A stretch of DNA of 64,000 nucleotides. It comes from Poronia punctata (taxonomy: Eukaryota; Ascomycota; Sordariomycetes; Xylariales; Xylariaceae). The notes under the pieces were generated by a model. The model was given only the letters and a program-made list of their open reading frames with translations. It was not told the DNA's origin and ran no database searches. The position numbers and the translations under genes are program-made. Below, piece after piece: positions 6,007 through 36,242 of this stretch; the first letter of the stretch is position 1; each line of letters begins with the position of its first letter. Location of the stretch: positions 62,001 to 126,000 of the forward strand of contig MU401519.1 of the NCBI GenBank assembly GCA_022579005.1, given 5' to 3'.

Positions 6007-6560
6007 ATGGCAGATAACGCCGACGAAGATGTCCAGGAGGTATGTAAAACCGCACCGCACCACCAAATAATACACCTATACCCATCTTGAAACTCGAGAT
6101 TTTTATTTCCGGGGCACTGATGGCTTTACACTTACACTTACACTTCTTTCTTCAGAGACTGAAATCCGCCCTATGGTTCGCAGTCGGCAAAATGGTCGAC
6201 GAGGAAACGCTACGGAGAAATCGTAACGTGACGCCTCAGTTTATAGGGGCTTTGACGGAGTTAGTTTGGGCGCAGATCGGTTCGTTCTTTATTTTTCTTC
6301 CTTGCTCTTGTCTAAACACCATCCCCCCTCAAAAAAACAAAAGTTTAGGATAGCGTGGGTTAATTGATTTTTTTGTTTTATTAGAAAACGTCGCTATGGA
6401 TTTAGAGAGCTTCAGTCGTCACGCTGGTCGTTCGACTGTCACTACTGACGATGTTTTACTCCTCGCGAGACGGAATGGTGATCTTCATGGTATTATTAAG
6501 GATTTCGTTGATCAGGAAAAAGCTGCTAAGGCGAAGGGCAAGGGAACTGGGAGACGGTGA
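6007..6560 (+). CDS. MHF1: CENP-S / MHF1 histone-fold protein
   Basis: Three exons: 6007-6039, 6156-6279 and 6385-6560, giving 110 aa. Introns have GTATGT...CAG and GTTCGT...TAG borders and all phases fit. The protein is a small histone fold: an N-terminal helix (RLKSALWFAVGKMVDEE), then VTPQFIGALTELVWAQIENVAMDLESFSRHAGR across the second junction, then TVTTDDVLLLARRNGDL. This is the CENP-S/MHF1 family, which pairs with CENP-X/MHF2 and acts at the inner kinetochore and with FANCM-type helicases in DNA repair. A basic tail (KAKGKGTGRR) closes it. The ATG at 6007 is the only start that gives the conserved N-terminus, and the first exon is only 33 nt, so it is easily missed by automatic annotation. 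Confidence 0.93.
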
Positions 6561-8102
6561 ATCGTCGTTTGATGTCCATGTGTAGCGCCCGTTGTTTTCC
6601 TCTTCAAATAATCGGAAAGGGGTCAACTACAGGGTGTAGCCCTGGTAGGAATGACTCGGCGCAAATATCGTCGGCTCGTGAGTCTTTAGTTTATGCCCGT
6701 AATTTCTCAAGTGTCGTTTGATGTACCTATCGTACAATGACCGGAATTGGATCGTTGGTGAACCGACAAAATATAAAGACGATGGATGGAAATCGCCTAA
6801 TGTCGGTAGATATGGTAGCTTGGCCTCTTAGGAGTTTGTGGGGATGGGATTTTAGTAACACTGGTCCAATTGCCCATCACAATTAAGAATCACATGCTAG
6901 TTTCTTACTGAGTACAAAAGCCACATGTCCCTCTCTATTGTAGACTCGCTGTCTTTCCTGAACTGAAGATGATTGACATGCCTACTGAAAAAGTAAGGTA
7001 TGTGATAGATACTACAACTTCTGATTTACTCTGCCACGGAGAAAGAAGGGCAATATCAGTTGTTGAAGGTGACGGTTTACCCAGCAATCGTCAGTTTGAT
7101 CTTGAGTTCAAGACTACGAGAAGAAATCCAGGGTCAACTGAGACCCACATAATGATATGTCGTCAAGACTAAGCCACAAACCGCGGTTATACAAAGTACC
7201 TATGGGCTCCCTCAACATCTTCGTGCATTGAGTCTCTTCTGTAGGTTTTACACGTATTTTACATGCCTTTTACGTCGCACGATATCTCAGCCTCAATAAT
7301 ATTTTGACTCAGTAAAACCTCCAAGCTGTCACCTGTGTACATGTTAGATTGGGGAAGTCAAAATTGCGGGCCAGGGTCCGGCCCCATATTCTTGGCAGTT
7401 TGGAGCCACAACCAACGTGACGTGACTTTGTGGCTTGGACTTGGATCTAGCGAATCGGAGGCATCAGTTGACTCGTCAAAGTTCGGTAGTTGATGTCATA
7501 GGGCCATATGATTACATGAATAGAGGGGCAAATGTAGTCAAGACTGCCGGCTTAACAGTGGGACCGTTTGTTGGGGCACTTCCCATCCAAAAACATTTCC
7601 GGTTGTTATTTCTGTTACAGCATCAAGTTTGAGGCCTGTATTTAGACAAACTGGAGTCTACGATTGGATGCGCTCTTTCGTCATAGAACAATACTTCTGG
7701 TTATGCTGAGCCTACCTTAGGTAACATGTCTTCTTTTGTGCTACCGTACTGCGACAGGAAAATATTGTGGCTTTAAAGCTCCAGGAAAGGTTTGGGTCCC
7801 TTGAAAGCAGATTGTACAGCTCAATAATAAATTAGCGATCCCTGATCGACAGCACATCTTGGTTCAAGATCGACCCTTTCCGATATCCACTCTGCCGCTC
7901 TTCCGACCTTAAACTCCCCGGCATTTCCTCCTCCCCCTTTGCTCCCTAATTCATCGTAAAACTCGTCTCTCTCTCGAATACCTAGCGCAACTGCAAAATC
8001 CCAAACCAACCTCGATATCCTAGATACACTCCAACAAACCGAACTCAAAACCAAAGAAGGTTATACACATATCAGAGACGCGTCACACAGGTACCACCGA
8101 CG
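6561..8102. other. Intergenic region
   Basis: No ORF longer than about 75 codons and no recognisable domain. The last 300 bases, pyrimidine-rich and ending in a CACCGACG context at the start codon, should be the promoter and 5' UTR of the MARVEL-like gene at 8103. Confidence 0.45.
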
Positions 8103-31704: not shown

Positions 31705-32789
31705 TTACTGGTCGTAATCACTCATGACATACGCACCCTTCGGTGGTCTCAGGTCTTCCGGAGGCGCAACCCCATTCTTCTCCAAAAATTCCTTCACCGC
31801 ATCGTAATCCGCACAGGTGTGCATACGTGTATTCTCGCTCGTTAGTCTTCCGGTATGTTTATACCATAAATACGGCACTGAATAAACACATAAATCCATC
31901 AGTCTAAATTTCGCGGGGTTTTTATAACGTAATAATGGTGGACAAAGGACAGACATACCAACTCCTAAATCAGCCGTACAAGCAATCCGATGGCGTAATA
32001 TTTCAACACAATGGTCTGGGTTATTCTCACAAGTCAGCTTACTGATCCTACACACCACTCCCTTTTTCCCACCTGGAACTTACCTATGTGCCAAATCCCA
32101 TAATCCTCATATTCAGGAAGAACACATTCCCCCGGTCTGCACGTAGCGTCGGTATACGCTTTATTATAGTATAGATTCTGTCGCAACACGTCCAAACAAT
32201 GCATCTGATGAACGGCCTCGGGTACGACTGGGTAGCCTACCATTCCGATATCGGGCCTGTCTATATAAGCGTGTCGGTCTGGATCGATGGCTGCTTTTGC
32301 GGCTTCTTCTTTGGGGATCATGATGAAGGATGCTAGTGACGGGGGACAAAAGAATCAGTAAATGGGGTTCTCTCGGACGGTTGATTTTGTTCACTTACCT
32401 GTTTCGCCATATTCTCGCCAGGCCTTGTCAGTTTCTGAAGAGTTGTGACCTCTCCAAGGGGTCGTCTCGTCGGGATAAAATGTCACGTTGAAGAGTGTGG
32501 GTTGAGGATGTTGGATTAAATGTGCTAAGCTCGGGGTTACGCCTTGGGGGGGTTGGTTGATTGCTTGGTCGGGTGATTGTGATTGTGACCGTGTAGTCGC
32601 CAGCAAGTAGATGATGATGCCGATGGTAGTAAGGTTGGTGATGCTTAGAATGGGGACGATAGCTGATGAAGATGATGAGCCATGTCGTCGCGAGCAAACT
32701 TCGTCCTGCGCTTGCGGTGTCTCTTCTGACCAACGTTCCTCTGTCTTCTCCAAGAGACCTTGGACATCATCTGGTGAAGAGTCCCTCAT
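31705..32789 (-). CDS. UstYa-family (DUF3328) oxidase/cyclase-like protein
   Basis: Four exons on the minus strand, 32789-32399, 32332-32084, 32015-31959 and 31877-31705; all three introns are phase 1 and 66-81 nt, total 289 aa. One N-terminal membrane segment lies at about residues 40-65 (VPILSITNLTTIGIIIYLLA), with a luminal domain after it. The two family motifs are present: HQMHC at 172-176 followed by LDVLR, and HIDHC at 212-216, which is split by an intron and followed by VEILRHRIACTAD. In characterised fungi UstYa/UstYb-type proteins act on ribosomal peptides or other substrates, making oxidative crosslinks. The next two genes support a peptide role. The ATG at 32789 is chosen because it begins a normal charged N-tail. 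It shares a 675-bp upstream region with the divergent second HxxHC gene. Confidence 0.88.
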
Positions 32790-33464
32790 GGCTTTGGGTG
32801 ATAGTAAAAGAGATGAGAGGGGGTGAGTGAGGGTGGGAGAAAAAGGTCGGATACCTACTAGTGACGGTATCAAGAGAGACGACAATGGAAATCGGGTCAA
32901 AGTCACAGGTCGACCTACAGCTGTGATAGATGGCGATATTCCTTCACTATCGACTGATGACGATCAAAAGACGACATGTACTTTTGTGCTCCCATGGGGG
33001 TGGGGACGAGACGAACAAGGTGCGGAAAAGGTTACGGCGTACCTATTTGTCCCGCATCACCACCACATGACGATAGGTTTTCTATCAAGAGGTTGATAAG
33101 CGATGAAAAATGGTGGTCGAGCTGTGCCGCGGAACTCCACCGCAACGTTTTTTTCTGATGAGATCCTACACTGCACAGGCTGAGCCGCACAACTGCATTC
33201 TCGATGGAACCCACGATATTTTCTCGAGAGTGGGGAAGTTAGATAAAGCGGCGAGCAGACGTTGCGGAAGGATTGAACTCGTGAAGCATACCCCTTTCGT
33301 GGTTACATCGGGGTTTTTTCTTTTGGAACAACTCATATCGAGCATCTTAGAATCTAATGACGCTTCCCGCGACGGTTACTTATCTTTTCATCTCGGGGAA
33401 ACCGTACTCTTCCCTTCCTTTGTCGATCGTGATAGACGAACAAAGACATCATCCCCAAGTCAAT
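32790..33464. promoter_or_regulatory. Shared divergent promoter region of the two HxxHC genes
   Basis: The start codons of the minus-strand gene (32789) and plus-strand gene (33465) face away from each other across 675 bases. No ORF with coding character lies between them. A bidirectional promoter that co-regulates the pair is inferred from position only; I identified no specific regulator site. Confidence 0.5.
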
Positions 33465-34170
33465 ATGAAGGACGAATTTAAATATGAAGCGCTGGCACGC
33501 GAGAGCGAAGAAGCAGAAATGTCGTCGTCGTCGCCGTCGAAAAGAAAGAAAAATCGGCAGAAGAAGGCTTACGCCCTGGCATTCAGTCTCGGATGTGTCA
33601 CGACATTTATCCTCGGACTGGTCGGATTAGCAATCCAGCACTCCGGTACCGAATCCAAGACGGCGGTCGAGATTGAAGCCGAAGAATGGAATAACTGTGG
33701 CCGATCAAGCGACGAGGCACGGAGACGCGGATGTGTCATGGAACCCATGTTTTACGGCTGGATGCCTCCGCAGTGCGTCTTCCGCGAACTGTCGGAGAAG
33801 CACCCGATACTGGACGATAGGCCGTATTACAGAGACTATAACATGACGGAGCCGGTCACGACAAGGGAACTGTGGGACGGGGTGTATCCTACTGTTTATA
33901 CAACGAGGTAAGTAGGTTGGGATGATCTGTGGATTTAGAACTGACCGATGCAACAGATATCATGACGAGCATTGCTTGTTCCAATGGAGGAAGCTGCACT
34001 ATGCCATGACGAATAGACTGGAGTTCATCGATAACAAGACCATGTCCCTTAATCATGCCTTTCATTGTGCCGATTCCATCACGACAAACCCGGAACCTGT
34101 GGGAGGAGTAAGTGGCAACCCGAATTTTGTTGGGCTGGGGTTCTACAAGTGTAGAAAGTTGTTCTGGTGA
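33465..34170 (+). CDS. Second membrane-anchored HxxHC protein (UstY-like)
   Basis: Two exons, 33465-33907 and 33957-34170 (49-nt intron GTAAGT...ACAG), encode 218 aa. A basic cytoplasmic stretch (SKRKKNRQKK) precedes one membrane segment at about residues 36-58 (AYALAFSLGCVTTFILGLVGLAI). The luminal part contains MEPMFYGWMPPQCVF and, after the intron, HDEHC (150-154) followed by LFQWRKLHYAM, then HAFHC (181-185) followed by AD. The paired HxxHC motifs, about 31 residues apart, parallel those of UstYa proteins, though the surrounding sequence is different, so it is a divergent relative or a convergent family. Two further cysteines sit between the membrane and the motif region. Enzyme activity is inferred. 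Confidence 0.78.
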
Positions 34171-35389
34171 GGTTTTTTTTTTTTTTTGGATCATTATACG
34201 GTCGAGTTCTGGGATACGGTATGGCGTGGCAGACTGCAGTATAGTTGATGAATTAGGTAATCTGCTTTTTGACGATAGGGTCAGAATCAGAATCAGATGG
34301 TGAATCGTCGCTTTTTACATGCAGACAGCGGCTTCTGTTCTGTTTAGAAAACAGCAGGTCTTTGTGAATCTAGTTTTACTCGACTCAATTGTCTGATACA
34401 GCGTCGAGTGAAGTAAGTAAGTACCTATAAACTGACTGACTGGTAAGAGCGCAATTTCATTCACTCTGCTCCGAACCGGTCGAACCAGTCGAACCAGTGG
34501 ACTGACGTACTTGCGGGGAAGATGGGGCTTACATATTCGACCTTACGATATTAGGCATAGTAGATGTCCAAACAGGGTACATGTACGGTCTATATACACG
34601 TACAGGTATACTCGTACTTTAACCTTAATTTTGCCCACTTGGGATAGCGACGTTTTTAGCATCTTTAAGCCTACTACACGTATAGGGATCTAGGAGAGGG
34701 TAGAACTAACAGATGAGAATACGTCGTTTCTTTTCTCGTTTTTATTTGATACATATGAGTTGGTATTGTGAGACTAAGGTGTTGTGCCTACATTACCTAC
34801 TTCCTAGACTACGATCTGATGTTCAACTATAGCTAAAGTACTTTAGGTATCGTTAATTTAACCGAGTCCTTTGAACAACAGGTCAGGCATTATCCTAACC
34901 TAGTGTACACCCCGCACCGATGCGCGCCAGGGGGGAGGCACAGCAATCTTTCGGTATCCGGGAGTGACAACACAAACCTAAAGAACCACCGATGATACCT
35001 AGTTCCTTCAAGATGATCGATCAAGATCAAAGATCAACATATTAGGTAGAGGTTGCGATAAGCTTTTCTTACTCACGAGACAAGCCTTATTATGCAGACC
35101 CGCGGCGCATGTGTGGCACAGCAGTTCTACAACAGACATTCCAACTCCGTTATCATATCCCCGGCCTTTGTAAAGGACCTATGAAAACATAATGATAGGG
35201 AAACGGCGACCACACCACAATCCTAGCTAGGACGACGATACGAGCGAACCGCCTTCCTGTTCTGGTCTGATCGTTCCAAAGACTTATTCAGCTATGGGGT
35301 TGTACAGACATGTAGGAGGTATCGCTGCTTTAAACTCGAGCGGTTATAACTCATATAGAAAAGCCGGGAACAGGACATACGCTACGTAT

Positions 35390-35420
35390 CATGGCATGGC
35401 ATGGCATGGCATCGCATCGC
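35390..35420. repeat. (ATGGC)n pentamer repeat
   Basis: Four ATGGC copies followed by two ATCGC copies, about 235 bases upstream of the precursor gene start. Confidence 0.9.
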
Positions 35421-35550
35421 CAAAGGAGTCCTATCACGATGCCCCTCCTCTGAGGAAGAATAGGAGGAGAACTACAGGGGCCGTTCTGGGTGCGAGGACT
35501 CTGGGTAGTATACGAGGCGTTCATGTAGGTACCTAGTCCAAGACAGTTCA

Positions 35551-35559
35551 ATATATAAG
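35551..35559 (+). promoter_or_regulatory. TATA-box-like site of the precursor gene
   Basis: ATATATAAG lies 94 bases upstream of the precursor ATG and is followed by a pyrimidine-rich leader (35605-35645). Position and sequence suit a core promoter of a highly expressed small gene. Confidence 0.45.
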
Positions 35560-35652
35560 GGACCTCCGATCTTGGGATAAGTCCAGGCGATGAACATAAC
35601 TCCCTACCTATATTCTTCTTCTCATCTTTCATCCCCACTTTCGTCGTACAAC

Positions 35653-36095
35653 ATGAAATTCCTCTTAGCCCTCGCTGCCTTTGCGGCCGTTTGCATCGCT
35701 GCTCCTGTCCCGCAAGGAGGCTGTAAGTACATAACCTACCTAACCTATCCTTCTGACGACGGGGCTAACATGGCAACTGACCTAGGCGGTTCTAACCAAT
35801 GTTCCTATATCGTTCCCGGTGATGAGGGAGATGCGCCTACGAAGCGTGATCCACAACGTACTTCTCCCTAAATACAAACAAACAACCGGCGCAAGAGGGC
35901 TAACACTGTTGGCAGCCCAGATCAATAATATTTACATCGTTCCTGGCGAAGAGGGAGATGCGCCTATAAAGCGTGATCCGGAACGTATGTCCCCCTAACA
36001 ACAAACAACCGGCGCAAGAGGGGCTAACACTGTTGGCAGCCCAGATCAATAATATTTACATCGTTCCTGGTGAAGAGGGAGATGCGCCTGAATAG
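35653..36095 (+). CDS. Secreted repeat precursor with Kex2 sites (candidate dikaritin-type RiPP precursor)
   Basis: Predicted exons are 35653-35722, 35786-35857, 35916-35984 and 36040-36095. Exon 1 encodes a clear signal peptide (MKFLLALAAFAAVCIAA) and ends PVPQGG. Each of the next three exons encodes one module with the motif Y-I-V-P-G-(D/E)-E-G-D-A-P. In the first two modules this is followed within two residues by Lys-Arg, a Kex2 site. All introns (63, 58, 55 nt) are phase 1, and introns 2 and 3 are nearly identical, so exon and intron were duplicated together. The third module ends in a TAG (36093-36095) at the position of the Lys-Arg lysine. The layout matches fungal Kex2-processed repeat precursors used by UstYa-type enzymes, two of which lie just upstream. 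The motif is Tyr-initiated and hydrophobic/Pro-containing, like phomopsin-type cores. It could instead be a secreted KEP protein of other function. Confidence 0.75.
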
Positions 36096-36117
36096 CGCAA
36101 TCCTGTCCTTTGATGCC
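35786..36117 (+). repeat. Tandem exon-intron duplication, about 124-130 bp unit
   Basis: Three copies of a unit made of one repeat exon plus its downstream intron start at 35786, 35916 and 36040. Copies 2 and 3 are nearly identical through the exon. Introns 2 and 3 share their last about 35 bases, including the GCTAAC branch point and the TTGGCAG acceptor. The third copy diverges after its GATGCGCCT segment. Confidence 0.9.
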
Positions 36118-36242
36118 GTGAGTCTCTTTCACAACAGGTTGTATTATTGTACCATGATGATTAACATATCTACTACTTAGCCGGAGCAATGGGTGTTTAT
36201 GTGATACCTAGGCAGCAAGGAGGGCGGCGGAAAGACCCGTAA
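36118..36242 (+). other. Additional repeat exon downstream of the premature stop
   Basis: A possible phase-1 donor GTGAGT at 36118, a 63-nt intron-like segment ending CTACTTAG at 36180, and an open segment 36181-36242 ending in TAA. In the frame set by the phase-1 acceptor it reads GAMGVYVIPRQQGGRRKDP, with a Y-V-I-P core and a basic step, and resembles a diverged repeat module. It lies beyond the TAG of the preceding exon. It is therefore either dead sequence or a terminal exon used only when that exon is skipped. Confidence 0.5.

Follow-up and report, generated by a model that had tools for sequence, protein, structure and literature searches.

A candidate dikaritin-type gene trio with an intron-split Kex2-repeat precursor, and its diverged second copy, in Poronia punctata

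Introduction

Do three neighbouring genes of the ascomycete Poronia punctata, two for membrane-anchored HxxHC proteins and one for a Kex2-repeat precursor, form a pathway to a cross-linked peptide? The genes lie in a stretch of 64 000 nucleotides (the window; contig C66:62001-126000), and a first-pass annotation had read them as a dikaritin-type locus for a ribosomally synthesized and post-translationally modified peptide (RiPP). In the ustiloxin, phomopsin and asperipin pathways, cyclisation is reported to need UstYa-type proteins (PMC7329392, PMC6514808). For the DUF3328 protein CctR, copper dependence via the HxxHC motif, two coppers per monomer and a lumenal domain have been described (PMC12435403). 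Repeat precursors with DUF3328 genes nearby amounted to 1758 of 7878 in one survey (Umemura 2020, PMC7329392), and nine dikaritin clusters are reported for Venturia inaequalis (PMC9632046).

Judging from the sequence, we put the probability that the trio is a minimal RiPP locus of the dikaritin (DUF3328) type, with Tyr-cross-linked peptides as its products, at about three in four. The evidence comes from the three genes, from a paralogous trio and from the pattern of substitutions. The genome searched comprises 45 Mb in 573 contigs, and its intron-bearing genes and the protein families identified are those of a fungus; the exon–intron borders of all genes are predicted, and the trio comparisons are made within this single genome.

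Results

The two HxxHC proteins

The first enzyme gene (Table 1) encodes a protein of 289 residues with the motifs HQMHC (residue 172) and HIDHC (residue 212), the latter present only in the spliced frame. Its designation as a UstYa/DUF3328 protein with these two motifs is borne out by a PF11807 match of 140.3 bits against a curated cut-off of 25 (E=1.1e-40). As expected of a UstYa member, the protein also has a pair of HxxHC motifs and a single hydrophobic segment towards its N-terminus (near residues 44–62, hydropathy peak at 44). No sequence of a solved structure matched this protein at E<=1. In the whole genome, the profile search found at least 27 PF11807 matches on 15 contigs.

The second gene encodes 218 residues with HDEHC at residue 150 and HAFHC at residue 181, and its best hydrophobic 19-mer starts at residue 39 (segment near 39–57). 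The gene model thus agrees with the divergent second membrane protein that had been claimed from these motifs. The first-pass annotation had proposed to compare both proteins with PF11807, and this succeeded for the first only; for the second, no Pfam family was found at E<=1. Its relatives, one each on C29 and C350 and two on C44, share their contigs with UstYa matches and repeat proteins; two of the four reach 14.6 and 10.4 bits with PF11807 (cut-off 25), the other two give no match. Yet there is similarity at the profile level. When the second-protein profile was compared with four UstYa sequences by hhalign, the HxxHC regions aligned with a probability of 68% and a score of 40.3, as against a best of 22.6 in 100 column shuffles, none of which was as good, and 15.9 for the reversed profile. 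The five aligned second-type proteins retain CG, C, W-P, C and both HxxHC motifs. By the Pfam rule the second protein is not a member of the family, but it probably works like a UstYa protein. Second-type enzymes, UstYa and repeat proteins occur together on four of the 15 UstYa-bearing contigs (C66, C29, C44 and C350). Cluster finders that rely on domains would overlook this second enzyme family, since Pfam scores it below threshold or not at all.

A precursor with one module per exon

A signal-peptide-type protein with Y-I-V-P-G modules and Lys-Arg had been described 1.5 kb downstream, and was found as such: the precursor gene begins 1.48 kb beyond the second gene, and its product of 88 residues contains three YIVPG[DE]EGDAP modules, with Lys-Arg at residues 43 and 66. 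The N-terminus is hydrophobic and signal-peptide-like, as judged by hydropathy only.

The DNA of the modules is spaced at 127 and 124 bases, which is not a multiple of three. Subtraction of introns of 58 and 55 bases (GT...GCTAAC...CAG) reduces the spacing to 69 bases and places each module in an exon of its own behind a phase-1 intron. Both inter-module introns share an identical 23-base stretch and the same 3' end, which implies that the duplicated unit was exon plus intron. No precursor with one module per exon was met in PMC9769878, which was looked into for introns. A 29-base pattern derived from the three modules matches only there in the 45-Mb genome with up to three mismatches, and the backward control pattern has no match; this uniqueness, together with the paralogous trio described below, argues that the array has not arisen by chance.

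The end of the locus had been placed at 36242. In the simplest gene model the last 62 bases up to this position lie behind the stop codon and are untranslated. They form an exon-like orphan stretch with a diverged module, whose similarity was equalled by none of 2000 shuffles for module 2, by 18 for module 1 and by 122 for a C29 module. As it follows the stop codon of module 3, it would be translated only when module 3 is skipped, and it may be a relic. The VYVIP of this stretch contains the core tetrapeptide of phomopsin.

A paralogous trio on contig C29

Searches of the genome with PF11807, with the second protein and with the precursor all converge on about 11.5–15.3 kb of contig C29. The layout there is that of C66, with UstYa on the minus strand and the second protein and the precursor on the plus strand. 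Local identities between the copies are 52% for UstYa, 57% for the second protein and 33% for the precursor. Each of the four enzyme introns keeps its phase between the copies; in the alignment three coincide exactly and the fourth is displaced by one column. The first precursor intron is likewise of equal phase. Two further hits in the search for trio copies were rejected: that on C197 (E=0.023) is itself a UstYa gene, and that on C19 (E=0.75) was taken as chance.

The C29 precursor has five QFVGTYVPAG[ADE]EGEA.. modules in a single exon and five Lys-Arg sites. Its modules have no X-Pro spacer, and it ends in APVKN without a final Lys-Arg. In ungapped comparison of the three C66 modules with those of C29, between zero and two of 2000 shuffles were as good. 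Tyr is present in all eight modules of the two precursors.

The C29 trio adjoins a polyketide-synthase-like gene; its other neighbour we take to be eIF3e-like. The C66 trio has a bicarbonate-transporter-like neighbour and, further away, an AAA/M41 protease gene (33 of the 52 open reading frames of at least 130 residues in the window were scanned exon by exon); both are probably housekeeping genes. Because the neighbours differ, the conserved unit is the trio and not the region.

Selection on modules and enzymes

The five C29 repeats vary at 21 sites, 16 of them third codon positions, with a pooled dN/dS of 0.08; reading the opposite strand in the mirror frame yields 0.08 as well, since the third positions are shared. 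In the three C66 cores all four variable sites are third positions (three silent, one Asp to Glu; pooled dN/dS 0.11). Between C66 and C29, both enzymes show a pN of 0.27–0.28 and a pS of 0.79–0.83, which is saturated. Module codons and both enzymes thus look to be under purifying selection, in small samples that all point in one direction.

A possible pathway

By analogy with known pathways, the precursor would enter the secretory pathway by its putative signal peptide, and would be cleaved by Kex2 after the two Lys-Arg sites and trimmed by a Kex1-type carboxypeptidase. A STE13-type dipeptidyl aminopeptidase may strip two X-Pro dipeptides (DPQP or DPEP) from modules 2 and 3, which would leave Gln-first 17-mers, QINNIYIVPGEEGDAP(I/E), matching the 17-mers of C29. 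The genome contains one Kex2-type P-domain match and two DPPIV/STE13-family matches. UstYa and the second HxxHC protein, possibly paired, would be binuclear-copper oxidases with their HxxHC domains in the Golgi lumen, and would act on the conserved Tyr of the modules. The most likely outcome would be an ether ring that joins Tyr to the side chain of the next residue but one (Val in YIV; compare Tyr-Ile in the YVIP of phomopsin). Recognition may rest on the conserved acidic tail, [DE]EG[DE]A.

Without the two X-Pro dipeptides, C66 modules 2 and 3 comprise 17 residues, the length of four of the five C29 modules; the conserved unit may be a peptide of 17 residues and not a tetrapeptide. Computed [M+H]+ values are 1841.928 for QINNIYIVPGEEGDAPI (1839.912 after loss of 2 H), 1857.886 for QINNIYIVPGEEGDAPE (1855.871), 1739.776 for QFVGTYVPAGDEGEAAE of C29 (1737.760) and 491.286 for YIVP (489.271). 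N-terminal pyroglutamate is reported on Gln-first fungal peptides (PMC9769878); the corresponding forms of the first peptide have values of 1824.901 and, minus 2 H, 1822.886.

Table 1. Features of the trio and of two related loci. Plain numbers are window positions.
Feature	Position	Strand	Content or basis
UstYa/DUF3328 gene	31705..32789	minus	Four exons: 32789-32399, 32332-32084, 32015-31959, 31877-31705; gene model and PF11807
Intergenic region between both oxidase genes, putative divergent promoters	32790..33464		675 bp; position only
Second, divergent UstYa-like gene	33465..34170	plus	Two exons: 33465-33907, 33957-34170; gene model, alignment, profile comparison
Kex2-repeat precursor	35653..36095	plus	Four exons: 35653-35722, 35786-35857, 35916-35984, 36040-36095; gene model
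Module 1 exon	35786..35857	plus	...SYIVPGDEGDAPT-KR-DPQ
Module 2 exon	35916..35984	plus	PQINNIYIVPGEEGDAPI-KR-DPE
Module 3 exon	36040..36095	plus	PQINNIYIVPGEEGDAPE-stop (TAG)
Orphan exon-like stretch	36181..36242	plus	Diverged module with VYVIP, same phase; behind a GTGAGT...TAG interval without recognised branch word
C350 locus: UstYa, second-type enzyme, repeat protein	L031:2173-2907; 6102-7112	minus; plus	
C44 locus: UstYa, second-type enzymes, repeat proteins	L030:1183-1836; L029:3841-4680, 6690-7853		

Other UstYa loci with repeat proteins

From each of the 14 contigs with UstYa matches other than C66, 10–20 kb were taken. On six of them (C29, C44, C350, C197, C37 and C5) UstYa has repeat proteins with dibasic sites in its vicinity, so that with C66 the count is seven of 15 and the kind is common in this genome; the weaker cases on C117 and C4 raise it to nine of 15. 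On C18, C26, C74, C81, C124 and C455 no repeat protein was recognised near UstYa, where intron-split precursors would escape.

The frame-based repeat detector returned 10 rows in 264 kb, three of which are wrong-frame readings of arrays already listed (one of the two at L041, L042, and L045 on the plus strand). On reversed sequences it returned 11 rows, all from loci with arrays; the detector therefore reveals tandem repeats near UstYa, not their meaning. Owing to its introns the C66 precursor was missed, and C4 with its two copies is absent from the rows as well. Intron-split precursors with few Kex2 sites can thus escape detection.

The modules of C350 and C44 have a VPW core in common (SGDAVPWNAVGSE, in ten copies, and GEAIVPWKEGVQ), with cores that differ as they do between C66 and C29; the dibasic sites of the C44 repeat protein are three KR and one RR only. 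On C5 (L045:2916-3599, minus strand) an eleven-fold AAYREGAWG-KR precursor lies about 1 kb from a UstYa match, and its DVEAD-type spacers look STE13-like. A UstYa match lies about 1.3 kb away from the repeat precursor on C37 (L040:9686-10000 and L041:1-234; CNAPKCAKDTAYAII-KR), which contains YAI, as ustiloxin does, and a Cys pair. The C117 protein (L042:4543-5262, minus strand) has a 12-residue repeat (KFYDRAVDQDAA) 17 times near UstYa with only two RR, and is not a standard Kex2 repeat protein. Two UstYa matches flank a possible intron-split precursor with two SDDEAVVYKW[DE]G modules on C4 (L037:5437-5841), and two others flank a repeat protein with DGTESVQVSEGF-RR-type modules on C197 (L032:5623-5919, minus strand).

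Within the window, the Rfam scan at gathering threshold and the tRNA scan were both empty. The four promoter regions have no 8-mer common to all; two 7-mers are shared, where 100 shuffles gave 0.34 on average and 4 at most, and we make no claim from them.

Discussion

Relation to known pathways and class

The trio resembles the phomopsin pathway of Phomopsis leptostromiformis (PhomA, core YVIP) in its secreted Kex2-repeat precursor, its DUF3328 proteins and a Tyr-led hydrophobic core, and the orphan exon of C66 also reads YVIP. It differs from that pathway by the X-Pro spacer after Lys-Arg, by the lack of a tyrosinase or S41 match on the contig and by having two oxidases, as against five reported for phomopsin (PMC7329392). 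With the ustiloxin pathway (UstA, UstYa, UstYb, UstQ; core YAIG/YVIG) it shares two HxxHC proteins and a repeat precursor, but its second enzyme falls outside the Pfam UstYa family and C66 has no match to a UstQ-like tyrosinase. The asperipin-2a pathway (AprA, AprY, AprT, AprR; core FYYTGY) is alike in being a small cluster with an oxidase and no listed tyrosinase (PMC6514808), whereas C66 has two oxidases, no AprR-like reductase was seen, and the neighbouring transporter is of bicarbonate type. The C66 enzymes share with CctR the HxxHC(x)nHxxHC motif, one transmembrane segment and a lumenal domain, which is expected for the C66 pair; CctR itself is a homodimer that hydroxylates a nonribosomal peptide (PMC12435403).

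The general class is that of the DUF3328-accompanied repeat precursors of Umemura (2020). The rule given there calls for a signal peptide and at least three tandem repeats of at least eight residues between Kex2 sites; C66 has three modules and two Lys-Arg. A later definition of dikaritins, as given in PMC12048977, rests on DUF3328 as the class-defining enzyme and a repeat precursor, both of which C66 has. The five-gene definition of 2016 (same source) includes a tyrosinase, none of which lies on C66. As to its methyltransferase and transporter or peptidase, no methyltransferase was found among the 33 of 52 reading frames scanned, the bicarbonate-type transporter adjoins the trio, and C66 has no S41 match. 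YIVPG, YVPAG and longer forms brought up only titles on unrelated subjects in a literature search that did not extend to the supplementary tables of repeat-precursor surveys. The claim of novelty made in the first-pass annotation holds insofar as the trio is a further instance of the class; it does not hold for a new kind, in view of the survey numbers and of the seven of 15 contigs here.

Weighing the explanations

As first proposed, the dikaritin-type reading is well supported: the first enzyme belongs to UstYa, the precursor is of the Kex2-repeat type, the trio has a paralogous copy, and the selection pattern agrees. Several points weigh against it. Tyrosinase (PF00264), which is described as required in the ustiloxin and phomopsin pathways (PMC7329392), has 20 matches in the genome and none on C66, and about 37 kb separate the C29 trio from the nearest one; the asperipin-2a cluster as described does without one (PMC6514808). 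Neither C66 nor C29 has an S41 peptidase match. The C66 precursor is short of both Kex2 sites (two) and modules (three). Two modules fall outside the 17-mer frame: module 1, which keeps 22 residues once its APVP start is trimmed in the same way, and the last C29 module, with 19. Two X-[PA] dipeptides at the module start occur in about 5% of module permutations and, since modules 2 and 3 were copied recently, the spacer counts as one observation. According to PMC6339444, the STE13 signature is absent from the precursors of toxic cyclic tetrapeptides and epichloecyclins. Lastly, with YVPAG in C29 and YIVPG in C66, a ring between Tyr1 and residue 3 is not simply transferable.

Linear, hormone- or pheromone-like peptides released by Kex2, Kex1 and STE13, with oxidases that merely hydroxylate or serve another substrate, would be an unlikely product, although the X-Pro dipeptides suggest it: after the Kex2 site, where alpha-pheromone precursors carry X-Ala or X-Pro for STE13, C66 has DPQP and DPEP, and precursors of this sort have been proposed as hormone candidates (PMC6339444). 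The two DPPIV/STE13-family matches, the Cys pair in module 1 and the example of CctR, a DUF3328 enzyme that is a hydroxylase and not a cyclase (PMC12435403), would suit such peptides too. Of the two alpha-pheromone cores described (Trp-bearing with two Cys, or PYGXPXG; PMC6339444), the precursor shows neither Trp nor PYGXPXG, and two Cys in module 1 only. The spacer is missing from the C29 modules, the Tyr is invariant in both precursors, and UstYa, second enzyme and precursor have been kept together at both trios; in the survey of PMC7329392, pheromone-annotated precursors were not beside DUF3328 genes, with three exceptions.

Slightly less credible still is decay of C66 from a C29-like trio, with modules lost, an end inside the third and a relic exon behind. 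The small number of modules, two Kex2 sites as against five in C29, the stop in module 3 in place of the Lys-Arg of modules 1 and 2, and the diverged orphan stretch would all fit. Against this, the signal-peptide-like start, the splice signals and both enzyme frames are intact, the enzymes have diverged at low pN and saturated pS, the variable core sites are silent but for one Asp to Glu, and the C29 precursor likewise lacks a terminal Lys-Arg. We consider it very improbable that the precursor is just a secreted protein of ordinary structural or cell-wall function which lies near UstYa by chance: fungi commonly have short secreted repeat proteins, but the same neighbourhood occurs twice in this genome, and eight contigs have repeat proteins no more than about 3 kb away from UstYa matches, the one on C117 mostly without dibasic sites.

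Significance

Within the dikaritin-type reading, a more specific proposal is tentative and, on balance, doubtful. The trio could represent a RiPP type that joins pheromone-style trimming (Kex2, Kex1, STE13) to dikaritin-style oxidation, in which Gln-first modules of 17 residues would be cross-linked at Tyr by a heteromeric pair of copper oxidases (UstYa and a family unrecognised by Pfam), with the acidic tail recognised and the core free to change as in the C29 copy. If so, one module per exon would let splicing select YIVP or YVIP modules.

The paralogous copy, the enzyme missed by Pfam and the unusual spacer make the C66 trio more useful. Two diverged copies, in which the cores have changed while the acidic tail and the enzyme pair stayed constant, would amount to a natural experiment on recognition by fungal copper cyclases.

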